Shown here piece after piece: positions 4,185 through 61,103 of a DNA stretch of 64,000 nt. The stretch's first letter is position 1. Each line of letters starts with the position of its first letter. A program made the position numbers and the translations under genes. The notes beneath the pieces were generated by a model. That model searched no databases and was not told the DNA's origin. It was given only the letters and a program-made list of their open reading frames with translations. This stretch comes from Pseudoalteromonas sp. Scap06 (GTDB lineage: Bacteria; Pseudomonadota; Gammaproteobacteria; Enterobacterales; Alteromonadaceae), in NCBI RefSeq assembly GCF_013394165.1, contig NZ_CP041330.1:620001-684000 (forward strand). The letters run 5' to 3'.

Positions 4185-4205
4185 CCCGCTACGGAGATTT
4201 AAACG

Positions 4206-7200: not shown

Positions 7201-7340
7201 CTAAAGATGTTTTATTTTATGGTCAAGCAAGCACGATTGCGTTTGGTCTTGCTATGGGAACAATTTTAACATTAGGGTTTGTTCCGGTTGTGTATACTTT
7301 TTTCTTTAAAATAAAGCCGGTTAAAGCAGATAAAAAATAA
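4206..7340 (+). CDS. RND-family multidrug efflux permease
   Basis: The 1044-residue product has the two-fold repeated architecture of HAE1-type RND transporters: an N-terminal helix, a large periplasmic loop, a helix bundle, then a repeat of both. The TM4 proton-relay motif GLLVDDGIIMAEDF lies near residue 410, and the partner helix near the C terminus has GIIINNAVILIDR. These pumps trade protons for drugs or other amphiphiles across the inner membrane. The divergence of the periplasmic domains resembles the smaller MexF/AcrB-distant subgroup, so the substrate cannot be named. Confidence 0.9.
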   Translation: MKIPTISELALDHNRLMLAIVFGLMLFGAFSYYQLPKQEDPKIKIREAVVTTAYPGVSAKKVELLITKTLEEAIREMPSIAEIRSVSIPGRSIIHAELKQSVEQSEFDQQWDKLRDQINAVRDDLPNGTLPYVVNDDFGDVAVLTVALIADPAYSMGDRQDVAQHIADMLHQVEGTKKIDILGIQQERIFIEIENAKLAQLGIAPDQLIGALKNQNIIRPSGVIDANGKNFIIQPSGNYQNLADIRNTLISVPNQPETILLRDIAKISRKVVDPPSRTSYYNNRQAIIFAISKDEQADVLKFTPKIEAMIAQINQTIPAGYQLKNITRQAGVVEDAVFGVTFSVLQTIVIVSVVVVMFLGLRTGLIVGSIVPAAILITLSVMNFMGIPLERMSLATLIIALGLLVDDGIIMAEDFKKRIEDGETRDDAIRNTSGTLAIPSLTSSLTTILVFLPLMLAQSSAGEYTRSISLVVLIALLTSWALSLTFTTYLCHRFVKKETREKQNIIRRKINRFFDSLTPLYEKALRQIMRARIAFVVVILGLFLAGGWAMSLVPAKFFPDSDRAQILVYLDMPAGTSMRKTDATVQAISKNLDDKEHFPHIEKYAAYAGFGGPRFVLSLTPIDPEPSKAFFMIDVGERKFADPTLKRVREMFAQDFPGVMGRVTKMFLGPSDSSLIEIQVKGPDSDYIYSVSDEIKTLLRNVDGTFDIKSDWENRITTLKLEVNQQNARRAGISSNDVAQALETYFSGRIISEFREGDDIFPIVLRAQDSERYDLDRINSVSIYSSAKGVSVPLMQVADIRYETQFARIARENLFRTVTVQAKNQIMSAQSMVPLLEEKLDKIREKLPPGYEIEYDGVVGDSAESQAAILANLPLCIAIMVFIIIAQFRSYRATSIVFLTVPLIIIGAAFGLLVMQANFGFMVILGLYALAGIIINNAVILIDRINIERKQIECLEQQTTEQSNQQNFEAVINASLRRLRPILMSTCTTIIGLMPLILSKDVLFYGQASTIAFGLAMGTILTLGFVPVVYTFFFKIKPVKADKK

Positions 7341-7390
7341 ACTCAGCGTGAGTTAGAGCAGACCCAAGATTGAGATTTTATAATAATTTT

Positions 7391-7429
7391 AAGCCTATTA
7401 GGTGGCAATTTTAGCCACTAAGTAGGCCT
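7391..7429. terminator. bidirectional terminator between convergent genes
   Basis: An imperfect inverted repeat (AGCCTATTAGGTGGC paired with GCCACTAAGTAGGCCT) with an AATTTTA loop lies between the permease stop and the stop of the opposite-strand kinase gene. It could serve both transcripts. Confidence 0.5.
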
Positions 7430-7432
7430 GTT

Positions 7433-9613
7433 TTACTCATGCTTTATTTGTTTAGATAAAAACAAGTTCGTGACATCAGCAACTTTTACTAATGACTCTT
7501 TATCAGCATGACTCCAAGTTACCTTTGAGTCTACACTTTCACAACAAATGACACCTAACGGCTTGTTATCAAGTTTATAAGTGTAATCAAGTAAAGAATA
7601 AATATTGAGTGGCTCAAAGTAAGAGTGAGTAAACGACTCGGTTACTTCGTTATTTCTGGCGTCTGAGGCGTCGAGTACTTGGTTGGTTAAAATATAGTTG
7701 AAATAAGCAGGGGAGTTTTCTGTATTTAAAACAGCACCACTTGACACGTCATCATTTTCATCAAGACAAATTAAGCAACTTAATGCGCTGTATTCTTTAT
7801 TAAATAACCACAGACTGACTCGATTGGCATTAGGAATAAGCGCTTTTAACTCTTTGCATATTTGGTTTAGCTTCCTGTTACTAGAAACATTAGGATCGCT
7901 AATTTTTACTGCTAAGTTTTTGAGGTTGAGGTTTTTAGGATTATAAACATTGAGTAAGCTGTTGAGCTTAGCTTTATCGAACGGTTTTGTTAAGTAGCCA
8001 TCCATGCCAATATCTAAATAATGCTCAATGTCTTGTTTTAGGGTATTTGCTGTCATAGCGATAATTGGAACGATTTTACCTGTAGGAAGCGATCTAATAG
8101 CCTGTGTGGCTTTTATTCCATCTATTTCAGGCATTTGTATATCCATGAAAATTAAGTCTACAGGGTGTTCTTTGAAGTACTTAACGCATTCTTTACCGTT
8201 CTCTGCGATTATTAAATCAGCATTATGTACCTTGAGCATTTTAACAATAATGAGCTGATTTATTTTATTATCTTCGGCAATTAAGACAGTACAACCTTGT
8301 AAGTTTGTTAGCTCAACGCTTTGCTTTGCTATTATTGGTGACAAAACAATCTCAAAGCGTTGCTCATAGGTGAACGTAGAGCCTTTACCTATTTGGCTGG
8401 TGAAGCTAAGGTGCCCCTGCATTAGCTCACTTAAACGAACACAAATTGATAAGCCTAAACCTGTACCCCCATATTCTCTTGAGGTCGATGAGTCTGCCTG
8501 ATGAAATTCTTTAAATAAATGTTCTTGAACAGTCTCATTAATGCCAAGGCCTGTATCAATAACTTCAAACTTGAGTACTTGTGTTTGCAATGTACTGCTT
8601 TTAATACTTACTTTCAGTTCGACTTGACCAGTTTTGGTGAATTTAATCGCATTTGAGCACAAGTTATTTAAAATTTGCGAAACCCGAAGAGGATCCCCTT
8701 TAAAATTATCTGCTATTTTAGAGTCTACCGATGTAATAAGCTTTATACCTTTAGTAGACGCTTGCTGTAACTGGGGCTTTATCACATCGCTAATAACGTC
8801 ATTAAGATCGAAGTCGATATGTTCAATTTCTAATTTACCAGCCTCAATTTTAGAAAAGTCTAAAATGTCATTTACAATATTTGATAAGTAATGAGCTGAC
8901 TTTAATATACTTTTTAAAGTGCTGTCTTTTTCCTCTGTTGTGGTTTCGGTCATACCAAATTCAGCTAAATTTAAAATCCCATGCAATGGGGTTCTCAGCT
9001 CGTGAGTCATATTTGCTAAAAATTTACTCTTAGTGTTATTGGCCGTATCTGCTTCTTCTTTTAACTTTTCTAGTTCTTTATTGTGTGCTTTTTGTTTTTC
9101 TAATGCCATAGACAGCTTTTTATTATTAAGCCTAAGCTCTAGTTGCGCAATAACCTCTTTGCCCAAAACCGTGAGCGCATTTATTTGTTTGCTCGAAAGC
9201 TTTTTTGGTTTATCACTAATAACACATAACGTACCTATAGCATTACCTCTAGGAGTGATAAGTGGTGTACCTGCGTAAAAGCGAATGTTTGGGTCGTTTG
9301 TAACCAAGGGGTTATCGTGAAAGCGAGTGTCTGTCAGTGCATTTTGAACTTCGAACACTTGGTTTTCTAAAATTGCGTGAGAACAAAATGATATATCTCG
9401 TGCTGTTTCGGCTACATCAATTCCATACTTAGACTTAAACCATTGCCTGTTGGGATCAACAAGGCTTATCAGTGAAATTGGCGTTTCGCAAATATCAGAT
9501 GCAAGTTGGGTTAAGTCGTCAAAGGATTTTTCAGCTTCAGTGTCTAAAACGTCATACTCATATAGGTCTTTTAGCCGTGATAGTTCATCTTCAGGTGTTG
9601 ACGCTTTTATCAT
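7433..9613 (-). CDS. hybrid sensor histidine kinase, GAF-HisKA-HATPase-REC-GAF
   Basis: The protein has 726 residues and no membrane helix, so it is cytoplasmic. An N-terminal GAF domain (about 20-165) is followed by a short coiled coil. The HisKA motif MTHELRTP has phospho-acceptor His204. The ATPase has NLCSNAIKFT, DTGLGI and GGTGLGLSI. A receiver has phospho-acceptor Asp491 in FMDIQMPEIDG and the conserved Lys of TKPFD. The C-terminal 150 residues look like a second GAF fold (SLWLFNKEYSALSC, GVICCES). There is no HPt domain, so the phosphate must pass to a separate protein. The signal is unknown. Confidence 0.88.
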   Translation of the reverse strand: MIKASTPEDELSRLKDLYEYDVLDTEAEKSFDDLTQLASDICETPISLISLVDPNRQWFKSKYGIDVAETARDISFCSHAILENQVFEVQNALTDTRFHDNPLVTNDPNIRFYAGTPLITPRGNAIGTLCVISDKPKKLSSKQINALTVLGKEVIAQLELRLNNKKLSMALEKQKAHNKELEKLKEEADTANNTKSKFLANMTHELRTPLHGILNLAEFGMTETTTEEKDSTLKSILKSAHYLSNIVNDILDFSKIEAGKLEIEHIDFDLNDVISDVIKPQLQQASTKGIKLITSVDSKIADNFKGDPLRVSQILNNLCSNAIKFTKTGQVELKVSIKSSTLQTQVLKFEVIDTGLGINETVQEHLFKEFHQADSSTSREYGGTGLGLSICVRLSELMQGHLSFTSQIGKGSTFTYEQRFEIVLSPIIAKQSVELTNLQGCTVLIAEDNKINQLIIVKMLKVHNADLIIAENGKECVKYFKEHPVDLIFMDIQMPEIDGIKATQAIRSLPTGKIVPIIAMTANTLKQDIEHYLDIGMDGYLTKPFDKAKLNSLLNVYNPKNLNLKNLAVKISDPNVSSNRKLNQICKELKALIPNANRVSLWLFNKEYSALSCLICLDENDDVSSGAVLNTENSPAYFNYILTNQVLDASDARNNEVTESFTHSYFEPLNIYSLLDYTYKLDNKPLGVICCESVDSKVTWSHADKESLVKVADVTNLFLSKQIKHE

Positions 9614-9827
9614 TATGCAACCTTGTTTTTGATGTGATTAACACTAGATAATCGAATAAAAATAATAGCGGACTAGCTGACGTAAAATAAAAAAGTACGC
9701 GTTTAATATTTTTGCCTAAAGTGTATTTATTTACGAACTCAAATTTAGCTAAATACATTTAAATTATTATGCTCAAGTAGTTAGCTTATATGACTAGTTA
9801 AGTTTTTACCAATTGATTTTAAATTGC

Positions 9828-11522
9828 TCAATCAACAATCCTATTACGGCCTTTCGTTTTTGCTTCGTATAAATAGTCATCAACGTATTTTAAGCTGTTT
9901 TGTAGGCTGATAGAGCCATCATGGGTAAGCAGCCCAATACTTACCGTAAAGCTAATATTTTTATTGCGATAGAAAACTTTATGTTGATTAATCGTGTTTT
10001 TAATTCGCTCAGCGGCTTGCTTAGCTTCTGCTTTGTTTGTATTGGGCATAATAATTAAAAACTCTTCACCGCCCAGGCGAAATACAAAATCGTGCTTTCT
10101 GGTTAAAGCGCGTAATGTGTTGGTAAGCTCTTTTAAGCTTAAATCGCCAGCTTCGTGGCCATAATTATCATTTATTGCTTTAAAATGGTCTATGTCGAGC
10201 ATTAATAATGAAATATAGGTGTTTTTATTTTGCGTTTTTAATAGTTCATCGCTGAGTGTTCTGTATAAAGTTCGTCTATTTAAACAGCCTGTAAGTGGGT
10301 CTATATTGGCTTGCTTTTCTAGCTCTTTATTAAGTGAAGAGAGTTCTTGAGTACGCGCCTGAATACGTTGCTCTAAACTGGTATTGAGGGCTATCAGTTT
10401 ATGCTCTATGTTTATTTCTTTGGTTACGTCGTTTTGTACAGCAAAGTAATAAGCCACTTTGCCGTCTCTAAAAATGGGTGATATGGCCAGTTCATTCCAA
10501 TAAGGGTCACCATTTTGCGTATAGTTTAAAATTCGGGTGGTTATAGGGATGCCTTTTTTAAGATGAATTTTAAGTTGCTCTATTGTGTTGGCGTCAGTTT
10601 TTTCACCTTGTAAAATGGAGCCAAGCTTTTTACCTTCTACTTTATTCAGTGGGTAGCCCGTAATTCTTTCAAATGAGCCATTTACCCAAATAACACGCTT
10701 GTCTTTATCGGCAATCACCATTCCTACAGTGGTTTCTTTGAGTGCAGTAACTAAAAAATCCCGCTCCAGAGCTATTTTTTCATTCCCTGATATGTCTTGG
10801 AAAATGCCATATAACTTAGTGATTTCACCGTTTAAATCTCTCGATACATTGCCGCTTGATATAACAGTGCGCTCTTGTAGATCGTCATCTACAACACGAA
10901 GCTTTATACAGCTCCATTCTTGTCCGCATGCAAGAGCTTGCTCGATCGCATCTGTTATTTTGGATTTGTCATCTTCATGATAAAAATTTATTGCAGTATC
11001 TAGTTGAGGGGAATAGTTACTCGGTGAAACACCATGAATGGTGTAAATTTCATCGGTCCAAAATAATTGGTTAGTTATACAGTCGAACTGCCAATAGCCT
11101 ACCTTTAATACTTCGCCGGCATTTTCTATGATGGTTTGTAATTCGTTATTGCTAATAACAGACGACACTTGGGCAAAATGCTGATTAAAAACTAAAACTA
11201 TATATTGGTGTTGGTTTTGCTGCACACTGTGTAAGCAACAATTTAGTTTAATGGAGTAATCGGTTGCTAATGTTAGTTCAATATCAAATTGGTCTAACTC
11301 ATTATGTTGCGATTTTAGTGCGAGAATTTGTTGTTGTAATAGATCTTTGCTTTCAGTAGTACAACAGCCATAAAGGCTTTCAATGGTGGGTACTTTTTTA
11401 GCTGCAACATTAAGCTCTGACCACCTTTGAGAAAGATAACTAAGCTGATTATTATTATCAAATACCATTAAAAGAAAATTACACTTTTCTAGCAGCGCAA
11501 TATTTATGTCTTTAATATCCAT
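9828..11522 (-). CDS. PAS-PAS-GGDEF diguanylate cyclase
   Basis: I start the gene at the ATG at 11522 (MDIKDIN), which has AGGGAG six bases upstream; a longer frame adds 17 hydrophobic residues without such a site. The 564-residue product has sensory PAS-like regions (about 115-245 and 255-370), a coiled-coil linker and a GGDEF domain. The active-site loop is GGEEF near residue 484. An RKHD motif sits five residues before it, which is the inhibitory c-di-GMP site, so product feedback is expected. It makes c-di-GMP and probably controls attachment or motility. Confidence 0.9.
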   Translation of the reverse strand: MDIKDINIALLEKCNFLLMVFDNNNQLSYLSQRWSELNVAAKKVPTIESLYGCCTTESKDLLQQQILALKSQHNELDQFDIELTLATDYSIKLNCCLHSVQQNQHQYIVLVFNQHFAQVSSVISNNELQTIIENAGEVLKVGYWQFDCITNQLFWTDEIYTIHGVSPSNYSPQLDTAINFYHEDDKSKITDAIEQALACGQEWSCIKLRVVDDDLQERTVISSGNVSRDLNGEITKLYGIFQDISGNEKIALERDFLVTALKETTVGMVIADKDKRVIWVNGSFERITGYPLNKVEGKKLGSILQGEKTDANTIEQLKIHLKKGIPITTRILNYTQNGDPYWNELAISPIFRDGKVAYYFAVQNDVTKEINIEHKLIALNTSLEQRIQARTQELSSLNKELEKQANIDPLTGCLNRRTLYRTLSDELLKTQNKNTYISLLMLDIDHFKAINDNYGHEAGDLSLKELTNTLRALTRKHDFVFRLGGEEFLIIMPNTNKAEAKQAAERIKNTINQHKVFYRNKNISFTVSIGLLTHDGSISLQNSLKYVDDYLYEAKTKGRNRIVD

Positions 11523-11741
11523 AAGCTCCCTACATATGAAAAGTATTACAACAATAAGGTTGAGTATAGACACCTTCTTTTATTTTTTCAGTCTAAGACA
11601 GTGTTAATAGTTAGCAGAATTCTTACTAAAAATGTATTTCAGGTTTGTTTTTATCACTTTCCTGATAAGGTATTGGTTGTATAACAATATTTTAACGTTA
11701 TTTCGTTGTTGTTAACGCAGAACGAATTACTGGAGAGTTTA

Positions 11742-13043
11742 ATGAGCATATTTCGATTGAGTGTTGTTACCTCGTTTTTTTTCGCAGTTAACATCGTTGC
11801 TACTAATGCACATGCGAGTACTAAAATAATTCATGCAGGAGAGTTATTGGCTATTCCCGGAGAAAAACCACAACAAAAACAAACTATAGTAATAGAAAAT
11901 GGCAAAATAGTTTCGGTATCAGCGGGTTTTTTACCTATCAACCGTTTTGGTGAAAATGCTCAGTTAATCGATTTATCGACCCGCTTTGTTATGCCTGGGC
12001 TCATGGATATGCATGTGCATTTACAAGGTGAGCTTGGGCCAGATAACAAAAAAGAGCTGGTGGAAATGTCTGATGCAGATATAGCAATGCGCAGTGTGCA
12101 TTTTGCTAACAAAACCCTTATGGCGGGTTTTACTACAGTGCGTGATGTGGGCAGTCAAAGTGAGCAAATGTACGCATTAAGAAATGGGGTGGCCAAAGGG
12201 TGGATAAGTGGCCCTCGAATTATTGCTGGTGCTGGCGTTACTATTACCGGCGGGCACTTAGATGTTGATGGTATGAGCCCAGACTTACTCACTATGAAAA
12301 CACCGCCCACAGTGTGTGATGGCGCTATTGAATGCCGCAAAAAAACTCGCTATGCAATTAAATACGGGGCTGATTTAATTAAAGTTGCTTCTACCGGTGG
12401 CGTGCTTTCGGATACTACTACGGGCACAGGGCAGCAAATGCAAGACGATGAACTTAAAGCTGTAGTTGATACAGCGCATGGTTTAGGGCGAAAAGTAGCT
12501 AGTCATGCGCATGCCGCTCAAGGTATTAATGCAGCATTACGTGCGGGCGTTGATAGCATTGAGCACGGTAGTTACACAGATGATGAAGGCATTAAATTAT
12601 TTAAAGAAACAGGGGCTTATTTAGTCCCTACTTTGCTTGCTGGGCACACCGTAGTTAGGTTAGCAAAAAACAGTGACTTTATGTCTGCGCCAATTAAAAG
12701 CAAAGCAATTAGGGTGGGGGGCGATATGCTCAACAATTTTACTAAGGCATATAAGTCCGGGGTAAACATTGCATTTGGTACCGACAGTGGCGTATCTAAG
12801 CACGGCATTAACGCACAAGAAGCGGTATTGATGTACCAAGCAGGTATGACTCCTGCTGATATCTTAAAGTCGGCAACGGTTAACGCGGCTGATTTGATTG
12901 ATATGAATCATAGCTTAGGCACCATAGAGCCTGGTAAGTTTGCTGATATTATTGCCTTAGACACCAGCCCACTTAGCGATATTAGCGCTTTATTGGATGT
13001 TGATTTTGTTATGAAAGAAGGCACGGTTTTTAAACAACAATAA
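11742..13043 (+). CDS. secreted metal-dependent amidohydrolase (imidazolonepropionase/Xaa-Pro dipeptidase-like)
   Basis: The ATG at 11742 is preceded by GGAG and opens a clear signal peptide ending NAHA, so it is preferred to an upstream in-frame start. The 433-residue TIM-barrel amidohydrolase has the metal motif MHVHL (His91, His93), a candidate bridging Lys in ADLIKVASTGG, His in SHAHAAQ, His in SIEHGSY and the catalytic Asp in FGTDSG. The family cleaves cyclic amides or peptides; the substrate is not evident. It is likely periplasmic and lies upstream of the formamidase-like and kynureninase genes on the same strand, but 125 bases away. Confidence 0.85.
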   Translation: MSIFRLSVVTSFFFAVNIVATNAHASTKIIHAGELLAIPGEKPQQKQTIVIENGKIVSVSAGFLPINRFGENAQLIDLSTRFVMPGLMDMHVHLQGELGPDNKKELVEMSDADIAMRSVHFANKTLMAGFTTVRDVGSQSEQMYALRNGVAKGWISGPRIIAGAGVTITGGHLDVDGMSPDLLTMKTPPTVCDGAIECRKKTRYAIKYGADLIKVASTGGVLSDTTTGTGQQMQDDELKAVVDTAHGLGRKVASHAHAAQGINAALRAGVDSIEHGSYTDDEGIKLFKETGAYLVPTLLAGHTVVRLAKNSDFMSAPIKSKAIRVGGDMLNNFTKAYKSGVNIAFGTDSGVSKHGINAQEAVLMYQAGMTPADILKSATVNAADLIDMNHSLGTIEPGKFADIIALDTSPLSDISALLDVDFVMKEGTVFKQQ

Positions 13044-13168
13044 ATCATTCTATTTATTTTATTAATAATGACGTAATAGCCCTGGTAAGTCGTATAAAAA
13101 AATTTGTAAACGACTGCCAGCGTTTTTAGTTATATCGCTTTTAAGGTTAAAAAAGGAAGTATTTTATT

Positions 13169-13999
13169 TTGAAATGCTTAGTAGTTTTATTTTTAGTTGT
13201 ATGGCCTTTTTTGGTTAATGCCACCGCGCTGCAAGTTAACTTTCCTGATGTAGATAATAATGTTGCATACGCAAGTGTTGCTTCGCTTGGATTTAACTCA
13301 GCTGATGAAAAAGTAGCCTACGGCAGTGATGAGTCACAGTACGCATTACTCTGGCGCGCAAAAAAAATACAGCCGCAAAACCCGTTAGTTATTTTACTTC
13401 ATGGTGGTTGTTGGCTAAGTGCATACGATATTAAACATACCTACGCGTTAAGTACTGGGCTTGCACAAGCTGGTTTTAACGTATGGTCTTTAGAGTATAG
13501 AAGAAGCGGCGCAAGCGGTGGTGGCTGGCCTGCAACGTTTAATGATGTAAAAGCCGGAATTTTAGCGGTAAGTAAATATAACAATGGCGAGTTTAATTTA
13601 GCTGACTCGGTTGTGGTAGGACACTCAGCTGGTGGGCATTTAGCTCTGCTTGCTGGTGGTGAAATTGATCAGCTTAAAGGGGTTATTGCCTTAGCCCCTA
13701 TTACTGATATAAAAGCGTATGCACGCGGTGATAATAGTTGTCAAAAAGTGACAAAGGATTTTATGCAAGGCATGCCAACTGATAAACCTAAGGCATACAC
13801 GCAAGCTAACCCGAGTGATCAGCCACTTCATCCGCAAAGCATTATATTACAAGGTGACCAAGATGCCATCGTGCCTGCTTTTAATTTAGAACAGCTTAAA
13901 CGTCCAGTTGTCATGTTAGAAGGCGTGGGGCATTTTGATTGGATCCATCCGGGATCAGCTGCATTTAATACACTAATACAAAATTTGAATGAGATGTAA
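13169..13999 (+). CDS. exported alpha/beta hydrolase, kynurenine-formamidase-like
   Basis: Translation appears to begin at TTG 13169, nine bases after AGGAAG. The first 20 residues (ending VNATA) form a signal peptide. The 276-residue hydrolase has the oxyanion motif HGGCW at residue 78, nucleophile Ser153 in GHSAGGH, Asp232 and His255. The HGGxW motif is typical of animal and fungal arylformamidases and related lipases. Two bases separate its stop from the kynureninase start, which supports N-formylkynurenine as substrate. An export signal before a cytosolic pathway enzyme is odd. A general esterase is the alternative. Confidence 0.75.
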   Translation: MKCLVVLFLVVWPFLVNATALQVNFPDVDNNVAYASVASLGFNSADEKVAYGSDESQYALLWRAKKIQPQNPLVILLHGGCWLSAYDIKHTYALSTGLAQAGFNVWSLEYRRSGASGGGWPATFNDVKAGILAVSKYNNGEFNLADSVVVGHSAGGHLALLAGGEIDQLKGVIALAPITDIKAYARGDNSCQKVTKDFMQGMPTDKPKAYTQANPSDQPLHPQSIILQGDQDAIVPAFNLEQLKRPVVMLEGVGHFDWIHPGSAAFNTLIQNLNEM

Positions 14000-14001
14000 C
14001 A

Positions 14002-15237
14002 ATGAATTTTAATGAGATTATAGCGCTTGATAAAGCGGATACGCTGGCTCACAAACGTAACGAATTTGATTTACCCGCAGACACTATTTATCTCGATGGT
14101 AATTCGTTAGGTGCTCTGCCTAAAGCAGTAAAACCGCGCGTAGCAGAGGTGGTAAGCCAGCAATGGGGTAGTCACCTAATTAGAAGTTGGAATGATCACC
14201 AATGGATTGATTTACCTACTCAGGTAGGGGAGAAAATAGCGCCTATTATTGGCGCCGACAAAGGCCAAGTTATTTGTTGTGATTCTATTTCGGTTAATTT
14301 ATTTAAACTATTAAGTAGTGCGCTATCGTTAAACTCTGAGCGTAACGTGGTGTTATCTACCGAGGATAACTTTCCTACTGACTTATACATGGTACAAGGG
14401 TTAAGTGAATTATTAGGCCCCGACTTATGTCAGCTAAAACTCGTCGCAGAGCAAGATATTGAACAAAGCCTAAATGATACAGTGGCAGTATTACTGTTAA
14501 CACAGGTGAATTTTAGAACCGGTAAATTGTTAGATATGCAAAAAATCACCCAGCTAGCTCATGAAAAAGGCATTTTGGTGATATGGGATTTAGCTCATAG
14601 TGCAGGTGCTATACCGGTTGAACTTGATGACTGTAATGCTGATTTTGCTGTTGGTTGTGGCTATAAATACTTAAATGGCGGTCCTGGTTCGCCTGCGTTT
14701 TTATATGTAGCAAAACGCCACCAAGCTGCTGTAAAACACCCCTTATCAGGCTGGATGGGTCATGCAAAACCATTTGCTTTTGATGCAAAATATCAACGTG
14801 CTAACAATATAAATCAGTATTTATGTGGTACACCCAGTGTAATTGCTATGAGTGCTTTAGATGCTGCGCTTGATGTATGGCAAGATGTAGATATTTCACA
14901 AATAAGAGAAAAGTCGATTGCACTTGCTGACGTATTTATTAAATTAGTAAAAACACATTCATGCTTAAGTGATTTGCGCTTATGTTCCACTGAAAATTCG
15001 AGCCAAAGAGGTAGCCAACTAGCATTTTCACATACCGACGCATTTGCTATATGCCAAGCGTTAATTGAAAAAGGGGTTATTGCTGATTTTCGTGCACCTA
15101 ATATTCTACGCTTTGGTTTTACGCCACTTTATACTTCGTTTGAAGAGATTTGGCAGGCAGTGGCTATTTTAGCTGAGGTGGTTAAAACCCAGCTATATAC
15201 CCAGCCACGTTTTAATTTAGCGGGTAAAGTGACGTAA
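14002..15237 (+). CDS. kynU: kynureninase
   Basis: This 411-residue PLP enzyme cleaves kynurenine to anthranilate and alanine in tryptophan breakdown. The family blocks are all present: YLDGNSLGALP near the N terminus, the aromatic block SWNDHQWIDLP, DLAHSAGAIP with the cofactor Asp, and Lys222 in GYKYLNGGPGSPAF as the Schiff-base lysine. Length matches known kynureninases. It is translationally coupled to the hydrolase gene upstream. No tryptophan dioxygenase gene lies in the window. Confidence 0.93.
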   Translation: MNFNEIIALDKADTLAHKRNEFDLPADTIYLDGNSLGALPKAVKPRVAEVVSQQWGSHLIRSWNDHQWIDLPTQVGEKIAPIIGADKGQVICCDSISVNLFKLLSSALSLNSERNVVLSTEDNFPTDLYMVQGLSELLGPDLCQLKLVAEQDIEQSLNDTVAVLLLTQVNFRTGKLLDMQKITQLAHEKGILVIWDLAHSAGAIPVELDDCNADFAVGCGYKYLNGGPGSPAFLYVAKRHQAAVKHPLSGWMGHAKPFAFDAKYQRANNINQYLCGTPSVIAMSALDAALDVWQDVDISQIREKSIALADVFIKLVKTHSCLSDLRLCSTENSSQRGSQLAFSHTDAFAICQALIEKGVIADFRAPNILRFGFTPLYTSFEEIWQAVAILAEVVKTQLYTQPRFNLAGKVT

Positions 15238-54355: not shown

Positions 54356-54431
54356 GCCTCGATAGCTCAGTTGGTAGAGCAGAGGATTGAAAATCCTCGT
54401 GTCCCTGGTTCGATTCCGGGTCGAGGCACCA
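54356..54431 (+). tRNA. tRNA-Phe(GAA), copy 1
   Basis: This 76-nt gene includes an encoded CCA. Acceptor arms GCCTCGA/TCGAGGC pair fully, the anticodon loop TTGAAAA has GAA, and the T loop is TTCGATT. The three Phe copies are identical in sequence. Confidence 0.95.
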
Positions 54432-54502
54432 TTTATTAAAGTAATGGTGTTTAGATATTTATTTAAACATTTTTACGCGTGCCTTAGCACACAGTTTTGT
54501 GT

Positions 54503-54578
<76 letters not shown>

Positions 54579-54626
54579 TTTTATAAAAGTGAAATGCTTA
54601 GAGCAGTTCACTTGCACTGTTTAAGT

Positions 54627-54702
54627 GCCTCGATAGCTCAGTTGGTAGAGCAGAGGATTGAAAATCCTCGTGTCCCTGGTTCGATTCCGGGTCGAGGCAC
54701 CA
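54627..54702 (+). tRNA. tRNA-Phe(GAA), copy 2
   Basis: The sequence is identical to copy 1 over all 76 nt, and the leader (ACTGTTTAAGT) is the same as for copy 3. Confidence 0.95.
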
Positions 54703-54762
54703 TTTACAAAAAAGTTATCAATCTTTAAAATTGATAAAGTGCCTTAGCACACAGTTTTGTGT

Positions 54763-54838
<76 letters not shown>

Positions 54839-54887
54839 TTTATTTTAGTTAAGTGTTTTGATAGCATTTAATTAGCACTGTTTAAGT

Positions 54888-54963
54888 GCCTCGATAGCTC
54901 AGTTGGTAGAGCAGAGGATTGAAAATCCTCGTGTCCCTGGTTCGATTCCGGGTCGAGGCACCA
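54888..54963 (+). tRNA. tRNA-Phe(GAA), copy 3
   Basis: Identical in all 76 nt to copies 1 and 2. A terminator-like hairpin follows at 54971-54995. Confidence 0.95.
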
Positions 54964-54970
54964 TTTATAT

Positions 54971-54996
54971 AAAGCCTTGCTCATGCAAGGCTTTTT
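54971..54996 (+). terminator. terminator-like hairpin inside the tRNA array
   Basis: Perfect arms AAAGCCTTGC and GCAAGGCTTT with a TCAT loop run into TTG. It lies between Phe copy 3 and Thr copy 3, so the last Thr may be expressed weakly or be separately transcribed. Confidence 0.6.
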
Positions 54997-55006
54997 GTTT
55001 TAGTGT

Positions 55007-55082
<76 letters not shown>

Positions 55083-55092
55083 TTTATCAGAT

Positions 55093-55119
55093 AAGCCCAG
55101 CATTAGCTGGGCTTTTTTG
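55093..55119 (+). terminator. terminator after the tRNA array
   Basis: Arms AAGCCCAGC and GCTGGGCTT with an ATTA loop run into TTTTTTG, 10 bases after the last tRNA. Confidence 0.85.
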
Positions 55120-55282
55120 TATCTACCGCTTGGCTAAATTCTCAATCAATTTTCACTTGCACCAATATTTTATCTACCCTTTATTATTCATGGCTTTCAC
55201 ACCTGTTTGTTATTTATTGGACTTCCCATAGTTTGCTAGACACCCAATGAGTTACATTGTAACTTCTAAAAAGAAGTGTTTT

Positions 55283-55560
55283 ATGAGCAAAGGCGAACGG
55301 TATACCCAAGAGTTTAAAGAAGCGGCTGTTAAACAAATTACTGAGCGCGGATATTCAGTCGCAGAAGTCGCTGAACGATTAGATATTTCTACTAAACGTT
55401 ATATCACTGCGGAGCCAGTTATCAGATAAACCTAAAGCCGTTCAATCATCCGATTGAAAAATTGAAGATCGCTAAATTAGAAGCGCAATTGAAACGTGTA
55501 ACGGAGGAACGGGATATTTTAAAAAAGGCCGCAAGGTACTTTGCCAGCAACCCCGAGTAA
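55283..55560 (+). pseudogene. IS3 orfA, frameshifted
   Basis: The ATG at 55283 opens a helix-turn-helix start (YTQEFKEAAVKQITERGYSV). The frame then breaks near 55397-55409 and again near 55449, after which the ordinary orfA end (LEAQLKRVTEERDILKKA) is found in another frame, with stop at 55558-55560. Two shifts mean that no intact OrfA or OrfAB can be made here. The slippery heptamer AAAAAAG survives in phase at 55521-55527. Confidence 0.85.
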
Positions 55561-55607
55561 AGTACGGCTTCATTCGTTATCACCAAGATGAGTTTTCCAT
55601 TACGACG

Positions 55608-56429
55608 ATGTGCCGCCTTTTTAAACTGCATCGCAGTGGTTTTTATGCGTGGTTAGAAAAGCCTTTAAGCGATAGAGCGCTTGAAGATAATCGTTTGTTG
55701 AAACTGATTAAAGAATTTTATGTAGCCAGTGGCGGCACATATGGTAGCCCTTGGATACATGCAGACTTGCGTGAAGCCGGTGAGCAATGTAGCGTAAACC
55801 GTGCCGCTAAGATTATGCGACAACATAAGCTTAAAACGCAAATTGGGTATAAGCGTCGCCATATTAAAGGCGGAAAGACATCGCGGATTGCAGATAACTT
55901 ATTAGCGCGCCAATTTAACCTGCCAGCACCGAATCAATCCAGGGTTAGCGACATAACTTACATAAGAACTTATGAAGGTTTTTTATATGTGGCGACAGTA
56001 ATGGACTTATTCTCTAGGCGTATTGTGGGTTGGTCGATGGATAAAAATATGGACAAGCACCTTGTTATAAACGCACTGTTGATGGCTGTATATCAACGTC
56101 AACCGAAGGCTGAGGTAATGGTACATAGTGATCAAGGTAGTCAATACGGTAGCGCTGACTATCTCGTATTTATGAAGGAACATAACCTTGTGCCTTCAAT
56201 GAGCCGCGCTGGGAACTGTCATGATAATGCGGTTGCTGAAAGCTTTTTTGCGACAATTAAAAAGCGAATAGTTAAGCGTAAGATATACTCGATACGCGAA
56301 GATGCGAAAGCTGAGATTTTCAATTTTATAGAAATGTTTTACAATCCAAAAAAGCGCCACTCACATACAGGCGGTGTTTCACCTGCTAAATTTGAGGAAG
56401 CGTACTATTCTGAGTTAAAAACTGTCTAG
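55608..56429 (+). CDS. IS3-family transposase OrfB (DDE integrase core)
   Basis: The 273-residue frame has the DDE core: Asp in VSDITYI (about residue 119), Asp in VHSDQGSQYG and Glu in NAVAESFF. The open frame runs back in the -1 phase to the slippery site at 55521-55527, so the native product would be an OrfA-OrfB fusion. Because orfA is broken, transposition probably needs another copy. Confidence 0.9.
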   Translation: MCRLFKLHRSGFYAWLEKPLSDRALEDNRLLKLIKEFYVASGGTYGSPWIHADLREAGEQCSVNRAAKIMRQHKLKTQIGYKRRHIKGGKTSRIADNLLARQFNLPAPNQSRVSDITYIRTYEGFLYVATVMDLFSRRIVGWSMDKNMDKHLVINALLMAVYQRQPKAEVMVHSDQGSQYGSADYLVFMKEHNLVPSMSRAGNCHDNAVAESFFATIKKRIVKRKIYSIREDAKAEIFNFIEMFYNPKKRHSHTGGVSPAKFEEAYYSELKTV

Positions 56430-56488
56430 TGAAAGCTGGGAAGTCCATACTCAGCAATGATGATAATGTTGATTAAGAATCAAAAGCA

Positions 56489-56704
56489 TTGAAATCAGAA
56501 TTCACTAGTCAAATGAACCGATTAAAACATCAATACAGTGAGCAGTACGAAAAAATTCAAGACATGATAACCGACTTAGATAATAGGCATGATTATCAAA
56601 AGTCGTGTTTAAATTGGTTTTATGTCATGTGCTGCACCTTATTTATAATTGTAATAGCCCTTTTTCTTTGGCACTTACCATGGAAGTTAATTTTAGGAAT
56701 TTAG
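56489..56704 (+). CDS. small coiled-coil protein with C-terminal membrane helix
   Basis: Starts TTG 56489 or ATG 56513 are possible; neither has a strong ribosome site. The product is 63-71 residues: a charged helical part (about 10-40, HQYSEQYEKIQDMITDLDNRH) and one membrane helix (about 44-66, WFYVMCCTLFIIVIALFLW). It is AT-rich and lies 16 bases before the next gene. The family is unknown. It may be the first gene of the cassette, a membrane anchor or effector. Confidence 0.55.
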   Translation: MKSEFTSQMNRLKHQYSEQYEKIQDMITDLDNRHDYQKSCLNWFYVMCCTLFIIVIALFLWHLPWKLILGI

Positions 56705-56720
56705 TAGGAGCAGTTGTAAC

Positions 56721-57626
56721 GTGCCTAAAAGAACTAACGAATATCAAAAGCTTGTACTTGCTATCAATAAGCACTTAGCATCATCTAATGCAATTGTTAC
56801 AGAGTCAAAAATGTTGTACGACCCTGTTTCCGAGCAAGACCGAGAAATAGACATATTAATTGAAGATAACTCAGGCCCTTATAAACTTACAATAGGTATA
56901 GAGTGCACGGCTAAATCACGCCCAATTGGTGTGTCAGTAATTGAACAGTTAATTACTAAACATAAAAACGTCGGCATCCAAAAAATAGTAATTGTTTCAA
57001 AATCAGGATTTACTGTATCTGCACAAAAATTTGCAGAAAAAATGCAAATTGACGCTATATCTTTTGGTCAAGCATTAAGCCAGTCATGGCCATCATTCTT
57101 AAATAAAGCTAGAGATGTGAGGTTAATACTAAATTCAACAACAATTGACGACATAGACTTCAATGTAACCTTTATGGAAGATGCTGAAAAAGTTGAATAT
57201 TCGCTAGAAAGCACAGTTTTAACTGATACAAATGAGAGATTGTTAATTTCAGATTTTGTTTATCATTTGATTTCATCATCTTCAACTCACAATATTAAAG
57301 AAAGCAACGTAGTTGATGTTGAAGTGATATATGGTGGCTCTAAACATCATGGTGAATGGACATTTAAGCATGAAATAATAATTACCGATAAGAACGGAGT
57401 AAAAGCTAAATGCACTAAGATGTCAGCCAACTATACTATTGTGTGTTCTTCATCACCAGAGCAACTTAGCTATGAAGATTTTAAGAATAAACCTGTAATA
57501 TACGGCTCAAGTGATAACTTAGGAGCTAATAAAGATACTAATATAACAGTTACAGCAACAGGTAATAATGAAGGGGTTTCTATGGCTTTTAATATCAGTT
57601 CTCGTTCAGGATTAAACTTAAGGTAG
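56721..57626 (+). CDS. Mrr-like restriction endonuclease-fold protein
   Basis: The 301-residue protein begins at GTG 56721, with AGGAG 12 bases upstream. The N-terminal 140 residues fit the PD-(D/E)xK/Mrr fold: Asp44 in REIDILI, Glu61 in GIECTAK and the family block IVIVSKSGFT with FAEKM. In the ExK strand the Lys position reads Thr63, with Lys65 two residues later, so catalysis is uncertain. The C-terminal half (about 150-301) is beta-rich and unrecognised. It lies 14 bases before the helicase gene and is likely its partner. Confidence 0.65.
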   Translation: MPKRTNEYQKLVLAINKHLASSNAIVTESKMLYDPVSEQDREIDILIEDNSGPYKLTIGIECTAKSRPIGVSVIEQLITKHKNVGIQKIVIVSKSGFTVSAQKFAEKMQIDAISFGQALSQSWPSFLNKARDVRLILNSTTIDDIDFNVTFMEDAEKVEYSLESTVLTDTNERLLISDFVYHLISSSSTHNIKESNVVDVEVIYGGSKHHGEWTFKHEIIITDKNGVKAKCTKMSANYTIVCSSSPEQLSYEDFKNKPVIYGSSDNLGANKDTNITVTATGNNEGVSMAFNISSRSGLNLR

Positions 57627-57640
57627 TATTTTAACTAATC

Positions 57641-60397
57641 ATGGATGAAAGCAAATTTTTAATATTAGTATTCCAATCGAACAGCTGGCTGGATAAAACA
57701 AAAGAAATTTCCTCAATTGTTGAAAATAGAAATAAATACGAGGTTTACTTTGGCAAAAGCGATAAGGTGTACGCTTATAATAAAGATAAAGTGCAATATT
57801 TTGAGCAACCTAAAACAATAGAACTAAATAAAAACCTCGTCCGTATTAAGAGTCGAGGTACCCATAAGTGGAATTTTGCGCTGTCTTTTGGAATTTACGT
57901 ATGTTTATTTAATGACAAAGAGAAAAGAATAGAACTAACTAAAAACATCGAATTAGTCCCTAATATTGCAGAATATGAAGATACAAAAAAATTAATTGAT
58001 TACTACAACTTTTTAGCTAAATCACTTGAAAATAAAACATCACATTTAAATTTATATTACGATAAAAAACTAAGTGCCATCCAACCTGAATGTGTCATTA
58101 GTAACTTTGTTACGCTAGCGCCAGCAAAGCATGAAAAAATAACAACCTATCCTATATTTCCTTTCGGTATAAATCCTTCACAACAAAGAGCAGTTATTAA
58201 TGCCTTGGAAAGTCAAATTAGCCTGATACAGGGTCCTCCCGGCACAGGCAAAACGCAAACTATTCTCAACATAATTACCAACATAATCATACAAGGAAAA
58301 AACGTTGCTGTGGTAGCAGGTAACAATTCCGCAATTGATAATGTTTTTGAGAAATTAGAGAAAGAGCAAATAAGCTTTATCGCTGCAAGGCTAGGTAATA
58401 AGGATTCACAAAAGCAATTTTTTAGTGTTAAAGGAGATCTACCTGAATTTAAAGGTTGGTCAATGGACAGCAACACTGTTTATCACCTTAGAAATCAATT
58501 AAACCAAATAAGTAGTCAAACAACTCAGTTACTAGAAGCTAACAATGCATTGGCAGTTCTTAAAGAAACTCTAGTGCGACTAGATATAGAAAAGCAATAT
58601 TTCGATAAACATTTTGATATTAGGCCTTTAAACATCAAACGTTTTTCATTTATGACTAAATGGAATACCCCTAACCTTTTAAGTTTTTTAGCTGATTTTA
58701 AGTACCACTCTCAATTTGAAAAATTAAGCTGGTTAACAAAATTTAAATGGTTATATAGATATAAAATCTACAAATTTGCTGATTTAAGACTATTAAACGA
58801 AAATATATTTAAAAGCATCATTAGCGAATATTATCAACGTAAAACAATTGAATTAAATCAAGAAATAAATAGCTTAGAGCAGCTTCTTATTCAAGAGGAT
58901 TTTGAAAGCCTTGTACAAAGACAAACACAGCTATCTAACACCCTTTTTAAATCGTTCATAGCACAAAAATACCAGTCAATTAAAGATAGTGATTTAGACG
59001 AAAAGTCTTATAAAAGAAGCCAAGAAGCATTCGAAGAGTTTGTTAATCGATACCCTGTAGTGCTTAGCACTACTGATTCAATTATTAACAACAAAAGTGA
59101 AGCCGAGCTATTTGATTATTTAATTGTTGACGAAGCATCGCAGGTAGATTTATTAACGGGCTTTCTATCGATGTCATGTGCCAAAAACATTGTCGTCGTT
59201 GGTGATTTAAAACAGCTTCCACACATACCTGACGGTTCATTAAGCAGCTCTATAGACCAACAATATAATATAATGAATGGTTATAGTTACTTTCACGAAA
59301 GCCTATTATCTTCACTAGATAAACTGTTTCCTTTAGTACCTAAAACACTTTTAAAAGAACATTATCGTTGCCACCCTAGAATTATCGACTTTTGTAATCA
59401 AAAATATTACGACGGTCAGTTAATCACAATGACATCTTCTTCAACTGACCCTTTCAAAGTCATCAAAACGGAAAAAGGTAACCATGCGAGAAAGCCACCT
59501 TCCGGTAGTGGTTTTATTAATATTAGAGAGTTAGATGTTATCAATAATGAAATTTTAAGTGATGAATTAAAATTATCAGAGGTTGATGAAATAGGTTTTA
59601 TTTCTCCATATAGAGCGCAGGCTGATCAAGCTTCATTACGTTTTTCAGTAAAAGATATAGCAGCCGATACGGTTCATAAATTTCAAGGTAGAGAGAAAGA
59701 AAGCATAATATTTAGTGCAACAGCAAACAGATTAACCGCATATATGGATAAGCCAAATCTTCTAAATGTAGCTGTTTCTAGAGCTAAAAAGCGATTTACT
59801 TTAGTTACGTCTCAAAACGTACTAAAAAAGCAAGGTTCTAACATAGGTGACTTACTGCGACATATAGAGTATCAATCACTGTCACCTTGCATTTTTGAAA
59901 GTAAAACTATATCAATTTTCGACTGTTTATATAAAGAATATTCATATGCTTTAACTTCATTTATGAAAAAAGTAAAAAGATCCTCTGATTATTTATCTGA
60001 AGATCTAATGTCTACTCTGTTAGATGATATTTTAAAGCAAAAATTTTATAGCTCTTTTTCATATCGGAGAAATTACACTTTAAGCTTATTAATTAATGAT
60101 TCTTCAGTACTCAACACAGAAGAAAAAATTTTTGCTAGCCACCCAAATACTCATATTGATTTTTTATTGTTTAATAAGCTCGATATGCTACCAATTTTGG
60201 CGATAGAAGTAGACGGGTATGAATTTCATGAGCTTAATGAGAAACAGAAAATTAGAGATAACCACAAAAACAATATTTTAGCTAAGATATCACTCCCATT
60301 ATTACGGTTATCTACCACTGAAAGTGGTGAGGGGGATCGAATCGAATCGGCACTAAATAGTGTGATTGAATTACCTGTAGATGAAGCTGAATATTAA
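57641..60397 (+). CDS. SF1 helicase (UPF1-like) with C-terminal DUF2726-type nuclease domain
   Basis: The 918-residue protein has an N-terminal region of about 180 residues without match. The SF1 motor follows: Walker A GPPGTGKT at 198, VDEASQVD at 496, GDLKQLP at 521, YRCHPR at 575, TVHKFQGRE at 677 and NVAVSRAKKRF at 709. A PD-(D/E)xK-like end has IDFLL at 839 and EVDGYEFH at 856, with RDNHKNNIL and LLRLS after it. It should unwind or translocate on nucleic acid and cut it. The DNA is AT-rich. Known helicase-nuclease defence proteins (Hhe, Mokosh) are similar in concept. Confidence 0.85.
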   Translation: MDESKFLILVFQSNSWLDKTKEISSIVENRNKYEVYFGKSDKVYAYNKDKVQYFEQPKTIELNKNLVRIKSRGTHKWNFALSFGIYVCLFNDKEKRIELTKNIELVPNIAEYEDTKKLIDYYNFLAKSLENKTSHLNLYYDKKLSAIQPECVISNFVTLAPAKHEKITTYPIFPFGINPSQQRAVINALESQISLIQGPPGTGKTQTILNIITNIIIQGKNVAVVAGNNSAIDNVFEKLEKEQISFIAARLGNKDSQKQFFSVKGDLPEFKGWSMDSNTVYHLRNQLNQISSQTTQLLEANNALAVLKETLVRLDIEKQYFDKHFDIRPLNIKRFSFMTKWNTPNLLSFLADFKYHSQFEKLSWLTKFKWLYRYKIYKFADLRLLNENIFKSIISEYYQRKTIELNQEINSLEQLLIQEDFESLVQRQTQLSNTLFKSFIAQKYQSIKDSDLDEKSYKRSQEAFEEFVNRYPVVLSTTDSIINNKSEAELFDYLIVDEASQVDLLTGFLSMSCAKNIVVVGDLKQLPHIPDGSLSSSIDQQYNIMNGYSYFHESLLSSLDKLFPLVPKTLLKEHYRCHPRIIDFCNQKYYDGQLITMTSSSTDPFKVIKTEKGNHARKPPSGSGFINIRELDVINNEILSDELKLSEVDEIGFISPYRAQADQASLRFSVKDIAADTVHKFQGREKESIIFSATANRLTAYMDKPNLLNVAVSRAKKRFTLVTSQNVLKKQGSNIGDLLRHIEYQSLSPCIFESKTISIFDCLYKEYSYALTSFMKKVKRSSDYLSEDLMSTLLDDILKQKFYSSFSYRRNYTLSLLINDSSVLNTEEKIFASHPNTHIDFLLFNKLDMLPILAIEVDGYEFHELNEKQKIRDNHKNNILAKISLPLLRLSTTESGEGDRIESALNSVIELPVDEAEY

Positions 60398-60706
60398 TTT
60401 GAGATATACATTTTTATAAGAATAAATTCTAAATGTTCAACTAGGGTAAAAATTGAATAATAATCGATGCTTTGATCAACAGATTGATGATTCTAAAACA
60501 CTAAAAATGCACCGGCTTATTTTCATGTATGACTTTTTAATACTTCAAACCAGAATGCTGAAAAGAAAGTAGGAAAAATCACAATTAAATCAATGTATTA
60601 TTGCAATTCCCCAGTTAAAAATAGTTAGGGTTATTTCTGCCTCCCTCTTTATTTAACATGTAGTTATAGCGCTTAGGTAGTGACTGTCGCTATCTATCGT
60701 AGGTAT
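60398..60706. other. non-coding sequence after the helicase gene
   Basis: I see no credible gene, terminator or integrase remnant here. It is AT-rich and joins the accessory cassette to the tRNA-Thr fragment. Confidence 0.4.
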
Positions 60707-60745
60707 CTTGTAATCAGTAGGTCAACCGTTCCACTCGGTTAGTCG
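60707..60745 (+). pseudogene. tRNA-Thr 3'-half fragment, att-like
   Basis: This 39-nt run matches the tRNA-Thr gene from the anticodon loop to the acceptor end with one mismatch (T-loop TTCGA reads TTCCA). The acceptor end GCACCA is replaced. It cannot form a tRNA. It is a direct repeat of the same part of the tRNA-Thr at 55007-55082. Confidence 0.85.
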
Positions 60746-60758
60746 AAAGAATGTATAC

Positions 60759-60786
60759 AAAGCCTCGCATATGCGAGGCTTTTTTG
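60759..60786 (+). terminator. terminator after the tRNA fragment
   Basis: A perfect palindrome AGCCTCGCAT/ATGCGAGGCT is flanked by AA and T's. It is similar in form to the terminators of the intact tRNA array. Confidence 0.75.
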
Positions 60787-61103
60787 TTTCTGTCCTAAGT
60801 TCGGCGCAGCATTAAACCGCGTTCCATATGCAAAATATATTTATAATTTTATTCCGCTTTAGCTGGTGTAATGCCAATAGCAAACTCTGCCGTATTTTCT
60901 ATATCAACTTTTTAAGAGTTAAAATTAATTCTCTGATTAAAAGTTAGCTTGCTCATTTGTTTTTGATAGTTGTATTAACACTTAGCGCATTGAGTGAACT
61001 TACAATTTCACCGCAAGCTATGTAATGTTATGTAAAGTCAATTGAGCAAAGTTTGCTAAAGTGATTGAATAACATTCATAAATAGCATTGATCAGGTTTA
61101 AAC
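60787..61103. other. 317-bp region upstream of the efflux operon
   Basis: No convincing gene is seen. A minus-strand frame from about 60913 to 60853 reads KVDIENTAEFAIGI, like the tail of a lost gene, with a stop just before it. The promoter of the efflux operon should lie near 61000-61080. Confidence 0.4.

Follow-up and report, generated by a model that had tools for sequence, protein, structure and literature searches.

The locus at positions 56489 to 60397 of a 64,000-nucleotide stretch of the Pseudoalteromonas sp. Scap06 genome (assembly GCF_013394165.1, contig NZ_CP041330.1, positions 620,001 to 684,000), referred to below as the window, appears from comparison with related loci to be not a three-gene operon but the remnant of a four-gene unit. 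The explanation we favour, with moderate confidence, is that the islet, which occupies a variable tRNA-Thr site, has moved horizontally and is decayed, and that genes 1 and 2 on the one hand and genes 3 and 4 on the other are separate modules. Three open reading frames (ORFs) are present, at 56489-56704, 56721-57626 and 57641-60397, with spacings of 16 and 14 bases, as listed in a first-pass annotation made from the sequence letters. That annotation described the DNA as AT-rich and bordered by an IS3 element and a tRNA-Thr fragment, and in this it was right: the GC content over 57001-61000 is 31-33 %, and this region includes four of the window's five 1-kb bins with the lowest GC, the element lies at 55218-56447 and a copy of the tRNA-Thr 3' part begins at 60707. 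Its three-gene cassette held in part, since the Mrr-like and helicase genes are real, whereas the first ORF is the tail of gene 2 and the first gene is missing.

When genome contigs were searched with the helicase, two close relatives were obtained, in Colwellia sp. E2M01 (locus L001, 89 %) and in a Colwellia metagenome-assembled genome (L002, 86 %), plus one weak partial match. Both contain four consecutive genes on one strand, coding for proteins of 339, 391-393, 301 and 918 amino acids and flanked by tRNA-Thr 3' copies. In order these are a protein of the NA37/YejK type (gene 1; PF04245, E 1.6e-59), a protein predicted to have a soluble N-terminal part and C-terminal membrane/coiled-coil helices (gene 2), the Mrr-like protein (gene 3) and the helicase with a C-terminal DUF2726 domain (gene 4).

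In the window, 3240 bp of the L002 DNA are absent and an IS3-type insertion sequence (IS) stands in their place, flanked on the left by sequence that aligns with L002 as far as position 5553 and on the right by sequence that aligns from position 8794 on. Gene 1 and approximately the first 304 of the 393 codons of gene 2 (about 77 %) were lost with these 3240 bp, and in L002 a 198-amino-acid ORF also lies in the absent stretch. The remaining part of gene 2 aligns from L002 position 8794 onward, with a 13-base gap which breaks the frame. The single match to gene 2 in the window's own genome covers residues 313-391 (94 % identity) and has an internal TAA; an intact gene 2 elsewhere in that genome was not found, only the remnant being matched. 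Genes 1 and 2 cannot work as such in the window. The ORF at 56489-56704 (71 amino acids, TTG start) is contained in the remnant and had no family above cut-off in Pfam, PADLOC and NCBIfam scans. The first-pass annotation had taken it for a small membrane coiled-coil protein that anchors or kills; this over-reading is corrected here, the supposed membrane effector being the frame-broken tail of an IS-cut gene. A toxin or anchor function of the 71-amino-acid ORF was rejected, the segment being the C-terminal tail of a protein of 391-393 amino acids that is intact in L001 and L002.

The IS has an OrfB-like frame at 55608-56429 and an interrupted OrfA-like frame, and no short target duplication was seen at its ends. 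The simplest account is an IS insertion accompanied by deletion of neighbouring DNA, the order of the two being inferred. Misassembly at a repeated IS was considered and rejected as unlikely, because the element is present as a single copy in the genome.

A second locus without genes 1 and 2 (L101, genome G418) was found in another genus. There, a tRNA-Thr is followed after 170 bases by the Mrr-like gene and a helicase gene whose product is 84 % identical. These 170 bases are too short for an IS, and 58 nt before the Mrr-like gene align with the L001 gene-2 region at its 3' end (86 % identity). Since the junctions differ between the window and L101, genes 1 and 2 were probably lost twice, once in the window lineage and once in that of L101. 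The Mrr-like and helicase genes are full length in both loci, and since the second genus keeps the pair alone, genes 3 and 4 can persist without genes 1 and 2.

The ratio of nonsynonymous to synonymous substitution rates (dN/dS) of the helicase was 0.095-0.130 in six pairwise comparisons. For the Mrr-like gene it was 0.093-0.137 in five comparisons and 0.457 in the sixth, window against L001, which is based on few changes; 11 of the 12 comparisons for genes 3 and 4 together thus lie at 0.093-0.137. Between the window and L001 the synonymous divergence (dS) was 0.084 in the Mrr-like gene and 0.405 in the helicase gene, and this contrast suggests that recombination took place within the cassette.

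Table 1 Features of the tRNA-Thr islet in the window (positions are those of the window)
Feature	Position	Strand	Basis
tRNA-Phe/tRNA-Thr array (3 Phe, 3 Thr)	54356..55082	+	ARAGORN
Island site, last tRNA-Thr	55007-55082	+	ARAGORN
Left direct repeat, comprising the tRNA-Thr from its anticodon region to the 3' end and the terminator	55038..55124	+	Repeat comparison
IS3-type insertion sequence, 1230 bp	55218..56447	+	Inverted terminal sequences, flanks; IS3 type judged from sequence
Gene 2 remnant (C-terminal membrane/coiled-coil part), frame-broken	56448..56704	+	L002 alignment and own-genome match
Mrr-like protein (gene 3), 301 aa, GTG start	56721..57626	+	Pfam Mrr_cat, structure model, Foldseek
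Predicted restriction-endonuclease-like fold, approximately residues 1-131	56721-57113	+	Model and Foldseek
Superfamily 1 (SF1; UPF1/DNA2/SMUBP2-like) helicase with C-terminal DUF2726 PD-(D/E)xK-type nuclease (gene 4), 918 aa, ATG start	57641..60397	+	Pfam, PDB relatives
Walker A motif GPPGTGK, residues 198-204	58232..58252	+	29 of 29 aligned rows
DUF2726 domain, residues 826-905; D840, E856 and D858 invariant (29 rows)	60116..60355	+	Pfam, alignment
Right tRNA-Thr 3' repeat with terminator-like stem, att-like island end	60707..60791	+	Repeat comparison

The left and right repeats of the window share 82 % identity across 87 columns, and equivalents of the right repeat occur at 13068 in L001 and 13070 in L002, so that a tRNA-Thr 3' repeat marks the far border in all three. 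No integrase was found among the scanned cassette proteins; other ORFs between the repeats, such as the 198-amino-acid one of L002, were not scanned. The TolC-like gene downstream of the site was present in 12 of 21 genomes, the window's own included, which leaves 11 relatives, and the site was compared in the seven closest of these 11 members of the genus (69-87 % identical). The order sensor kinase, tRNA array, TolC-like gene was kept in all seven, with inserts in between that differ or are absent; the tRNA-Thr site is variable in content. In one relative (G399, locus L082, 8920-15805) the same site carries genes for a Septu-like PtuA ATPase and an HNH protein together with two integrase-family genes. 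In another (G401, locus L079, read as the reverse complement) four extra partial tRNA-Thr copies follow the last tRNA-Thr at about 14000-14650, spaced by approximately 130 bases and each with a terminator-like stretch. Genes which we take to be mutY-like and yggX-like precede the array both in L001 and in the genus relatives, and because of this the same tRNA-Thr site seems to be used in two genera.

Searches of 394 genomes of the order detected gene 2 in 25 of them. With the window's remnant set aside, a NA37 gene lies directly upstream in all 24 order-level matches without an inner stop, G357 (L001) included. The NA37 assignments were based on phmmer for 13 and Pfam for two of 15 loci, Pfam for five more, phmmer for three more, and G357; in eight of the 24 the flank covered was limited to about 1.5 kb, so that some of these NA37 frames are partial. 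Gene 2 had neither a Mrr nor a helicase ORF listed next to it in the order-level loci read, with the exception of G357. Gene 2 was also present in nine of 72,556 plasmid records, where six of the seven regions read had NA37 upstream and one short coding sequence had not, and in six of 50,697 phage records, both of those read having NA37. Two further loci were found in viral contigs, both with NA37, of which one seems to be identical with L051. On plasmids, in phages and on chromosomes, genes 1 and 2 are found with neither Mrr nor helicase. In L051, whose gene 2 product is a 52 % identical relative, and in L140 the two genes are followed by one coding for a 660-amino-acid HEC-06/SspE-like protein (7182-9164 and 3961-5943, respectively). 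An upstream ORF on the opposite strand in both loci resembles a phage integrase, as judged by its appearance.

The proteins of genes 1 and 2 are related to families which NCBIfam names DS1_1 (NF053868) and DS1_2 (NF053869) and describes as anti-phage. Gene 1 of L001 and L002 scored 59.4 and 60.0 bits with NF053868, below its equivalog cut-off of 330 bits, and gene 2 scored 82.9 and 80.8 bits with NF053869, which indicates homology below the equivalog cut-off of 315 bits; the further relatives of both genes that were scanned also fell below the DS1 cut-offs or gave no score. As in L001 and L002, DS1 has a NA37/YejK-type gene and, directly after it, a DS1_2-family gene, with relatives in plasmids and phages, whereas L001 and L002 add the Mrr-like and helicase-nuclease genes, and the window is without gene 1 and has gene 2 as a remnant. 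No further DS1 model was among the matches, on which basis DS1 would have two genes only. The DefensePredictor paper lists a YejK nucleoid-associated domain as newly validated in defence (PMC13092281), and judging by the names NCBI's DS1 would be the DS-1 of that paper.

The structure model of the L001 gene 2 protein (mean predicted local distance difference test score, pLDDT, 80.3) has an alpha/beta N-terminal part and long C-terminal helices. Hydrophobic stretches lie near residues 290-313 and 358-391, with a weaker one near 267. The model had no match in the PDB at E <= 0.001 and the sequence none at E <= 0.1. Gene-2 proteins were aligned as L001 plus 41 of the 76 listed (alignment A4). A function as membrane effector is plausible.

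The Mrr-type protein proposed in the first-pass annotation was confirmed at the level of the fold by Mrr_cat (E 1.4e-7, 32 bits against a cut-off of 21) and by Foldseek, for which AF1548 (E 4.4e-5) was the sole match at E <= 0.001. The model has a mean pLDDT of 74.5, with residues 251-301 mostly below 50; its C-terminal region is beta-rich and was not assigned to a family. Mrr restriction endonucleases have an active-site motif D...(D/E/Q)xK. In an alignment of the window protein with 19 of the 46 listed Mrr proteins (alignment A2), E28, D44 and E61 are invariant in all 20 rows, and the usual site of the catalytic lysine is occupied by Thr in 18 rows, including the window, by Ile in one and by Lys in one, so a complete D...(D/E/Q)xK site was not found in the Mrr-like protein. 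Gene 3 may thus code for a protein that binds rather than cuts DNA; the missing lysine fits this and does not prove it. The earlier proposal that the Mrr-like protein recognises DNA gains to the same degree, the lysine being absent in 19 of the 20 rows. Mrr, the modification-dependent restriction enzymes AspBHI and MspJI, and AF1548 share the fold of the N-terminal domain, whereas gene 3 differs from them in its Thr at the lysine site, its C-terminal region and its helicase-nuclease partner.

For gene 4, the description as a UPF1-like SF1 helicase ending in a DUF2726-type nuclease proved correct: Pfam found AAA_11, AAA_12 and DUF2726 (E 1.4e-13), and DNA2, SMUBP-2, SEN1 and UPF1 are among its solved relatives by sequence in the PDB. 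In an alignment of the window protein with 28 of the 120 listed helicases (alignment A3, 29 rows), the motifs Walker A, DEASQ, GDxxQ, YRCHP, QGREK and VSRA are conserved or nearly so. Judged by these motifs, gene 4 likely encodes an active ATP-driven translocase with a nuclease. The family is large, with 4464 proteins at E <= 0.001 among the 7997 candidates scored, and the 120 matches listed include proteins of Xenorhabdus and Pectobacterium. At E <= 1e-60 the helicase was found in eight of 394 order-level and ten of 395 family-level genomes, 14 distinct genomes together, and at E <= 1e-100 in one of 364 genomes of the class, the window's own.

The Mrr-like gene adjoins the helicase gene in four of these 14 loci (G000, G357 with L001, G677, and G418 with L101), in which the helicases are 84-100 % identical. 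All ten more distant loci (helicases 36-53 % identical) were read and had no Mrr, NA37 or gene-2 neighbours. The linkage is real but narrow, and the co-occurrence of the pair, which the first-pass annotation proposed to examine at defence islands, holds for helicases at least 84 % identical and not for the distant ones. Unlinked neighbours and a conserved core position, which it had named as findings that would speak against a cassette, were encountered in part, in these ten loci and in one genus in which, in both of the two species read, the helicase gene is preceded by cinA/recA-like ORFs and immediately followed by a mutS-like ORF; these names were read from the ORF starts, and one of the species has further ORFs in between. 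Mrr profile matches occurred in nine of 394 genomes of the order, and none of the four loci read, of the seven other than G000 and G357, had the helicase beside Mrr; G278 carries both on separate contigs. In the locus L021 (G340, 6088-14799) a helicase-DUF2726 gene with a product 53 % identical stands beside genes for a UG17 reverse transcriptase and a SLATT protein, with a type II cytosine methylase gene and a restriction-endonuclease-like gene also near. UG17 reverse transcriptase and SLATT protein are parts of DRT10 (PMC12632851).

In the reading of the locus as a decayed islet of two modules, genes 1 and 2 would form a detachable two-gene defence module related to NCBI's DS1. Genes 3 and 4 would be another module. 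Its Mrr-fold protein, whose catalytic activity is probably weak or absent, may bind foreign, modified or broken DNA and recruit the helicase-nuclease, by which the DNA would be unwound and cut. The defence role proposed earlier gains from context only, namely from the DS1-related genes 1 and 2, the Septu-like genes at the same site and the DRT10-type genes by the 53 % identical helicase, but the architecture proposed with it was wrong. Several points weigh against this explanation. The DS1 scores, 59 and 83 bits, are far from the cut-offs of 330 and 315, the Mrr link was seen in just four of 14 helicase loci, all close relatives, and the far tRNA-Thr repeat was looked for in L101 and not seen. 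The independence of the two losses rests on differing junctions in just two loci, the dN/dS of 0.457 makes relaxed constraint in one of these lineages possible, and an activity of genes 3 and 4 was described in nothing found, their part in defence being reached by inference.

It may be, although we put this forward only tentatively, that the two genes for the Mrr-like and helicase-DUF2726 proteins suffice by themselves as a system against phages or plasmids, with an Mrr-fold sensor that is catalytically dead, and that this system travels with a separate DS1-like module which is repeatedly discarded. No description of such a two-gene system was found in the literature searched. If this is true, one islet would show the costly layer shed and the DNA-degrading layer retained. 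A single system of four genes, of which the window copy is dead, with the Mrr-like protein and helicase useless alone and decaying, agrees with the small number of records available, only two with four genes and two that are shortened, with the Mrr dN/dS of 0.457 between window and L001, and with the loss of the region upstream of gene 1 in the window. It is nevertheless unlikely, given that both genes are full length in the two loci lacking genes 1 and 2, that all six helicase comparisons give a dN/dS of 0.095-0.130, and that neither Mrr nor helicase accompanies genes 1 and 2 in the other loci read. The lineage-specific single changes of the window also resemble those of the intact L001, with 23 nonsynonymous and 50 synonymous against 28 and 47 in the helicase, and 4 and 6 against 5 and 5 in the Mrr-like gene.

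That the helicase-nuclease is an enzyme of DNA or RNA repair or processing which simply lies in one islet with a defence module would suit its solved relatives (DNA2, SMUBP-2, SEN1, UPF1) and the ten distant homologues without Mrr, NA37 or gene 2, with those of one genus near recA-like and mutS-like ORFs. The patchy spread at E <= 1e-60 over order and family, the position of the close copies at a variable tRNA site and of the 53 % relative among defence genes, and best PADLOC matches to the helicases MkoA and MkoC make this improbable. The PADLOC search with the three products, which the first-pass annotation had recommended, gave 175.6 bits for MkoA, 170.3 for MkoC and 67.4 for Hhe with the helicase, scores which could be taken to indicate a Mokosh- or Hhe-type system. 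These matches are confined to the helicase core, with residues 177-744 aligning to positions 616-1099 of the 1112 of the MkoA model and thus short of full length. Mokosh needs a phospholipase D nuclease, separate or fused, and no phospholipase D domain was found in the three window products, the rest of the genome not being searched. Hhe, a DUF4011 helicase-Vsr protein, resembles gene 4 in joining a helicase to a C-terminal restriction-like nuclease, but its models have 1797-1911 positions against 918 amino acids here, the scores are 67-87 bits, and the 86.6 bits with NCBIfam NF042953 compare with a cut-off of 2000. Membership of Mokosh or Hhe was rejected on these grounds, and its probability is close to nil. 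With Mokosh (MkoA/MkoC) and PDC-S37 helicases gene 4 shares the SF1 UPF1-like core, and it differs from them in the DUF2726 nuclease at the C-terminus and the Mrr-like partner, and in that phospholipase D is lacking from the three products.

The preferred reading, a decayed islet of two modules, would provide an example of damage and re-use of defence-type operons at a tRNA site. For the question whether modules stacked in one islet act jointly or separately, the intact Colwellia units and the Mrr-helicase pair of the second genus offer natural test cases, and the same loci bear on the role of the Mrr fold without catalytic lysine.

Among mobile elements, 15 stretches of viral contigs matched a pattern for Mrr, none of which was a relative. 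Helicase matches at E <= 1e-5 occurred in 433 of 72,556 plasmid records, four of them over at least 80 % of the length, and the one plasmid region read (Escherichia coli, helicase 37 % identical) had no annotated Mrr. The helicase was found in one of 50,697 phage records at E <= 1e-20 and in 26 loci of viral contigs, of which the four read contained neither Mrr nor NA37 nor gene 2. In one genus, both species (G431 and G460, loci L104 and L105) have a 37 % identical helicase followed by an ORF of 1274 amino acids, another possible partner.

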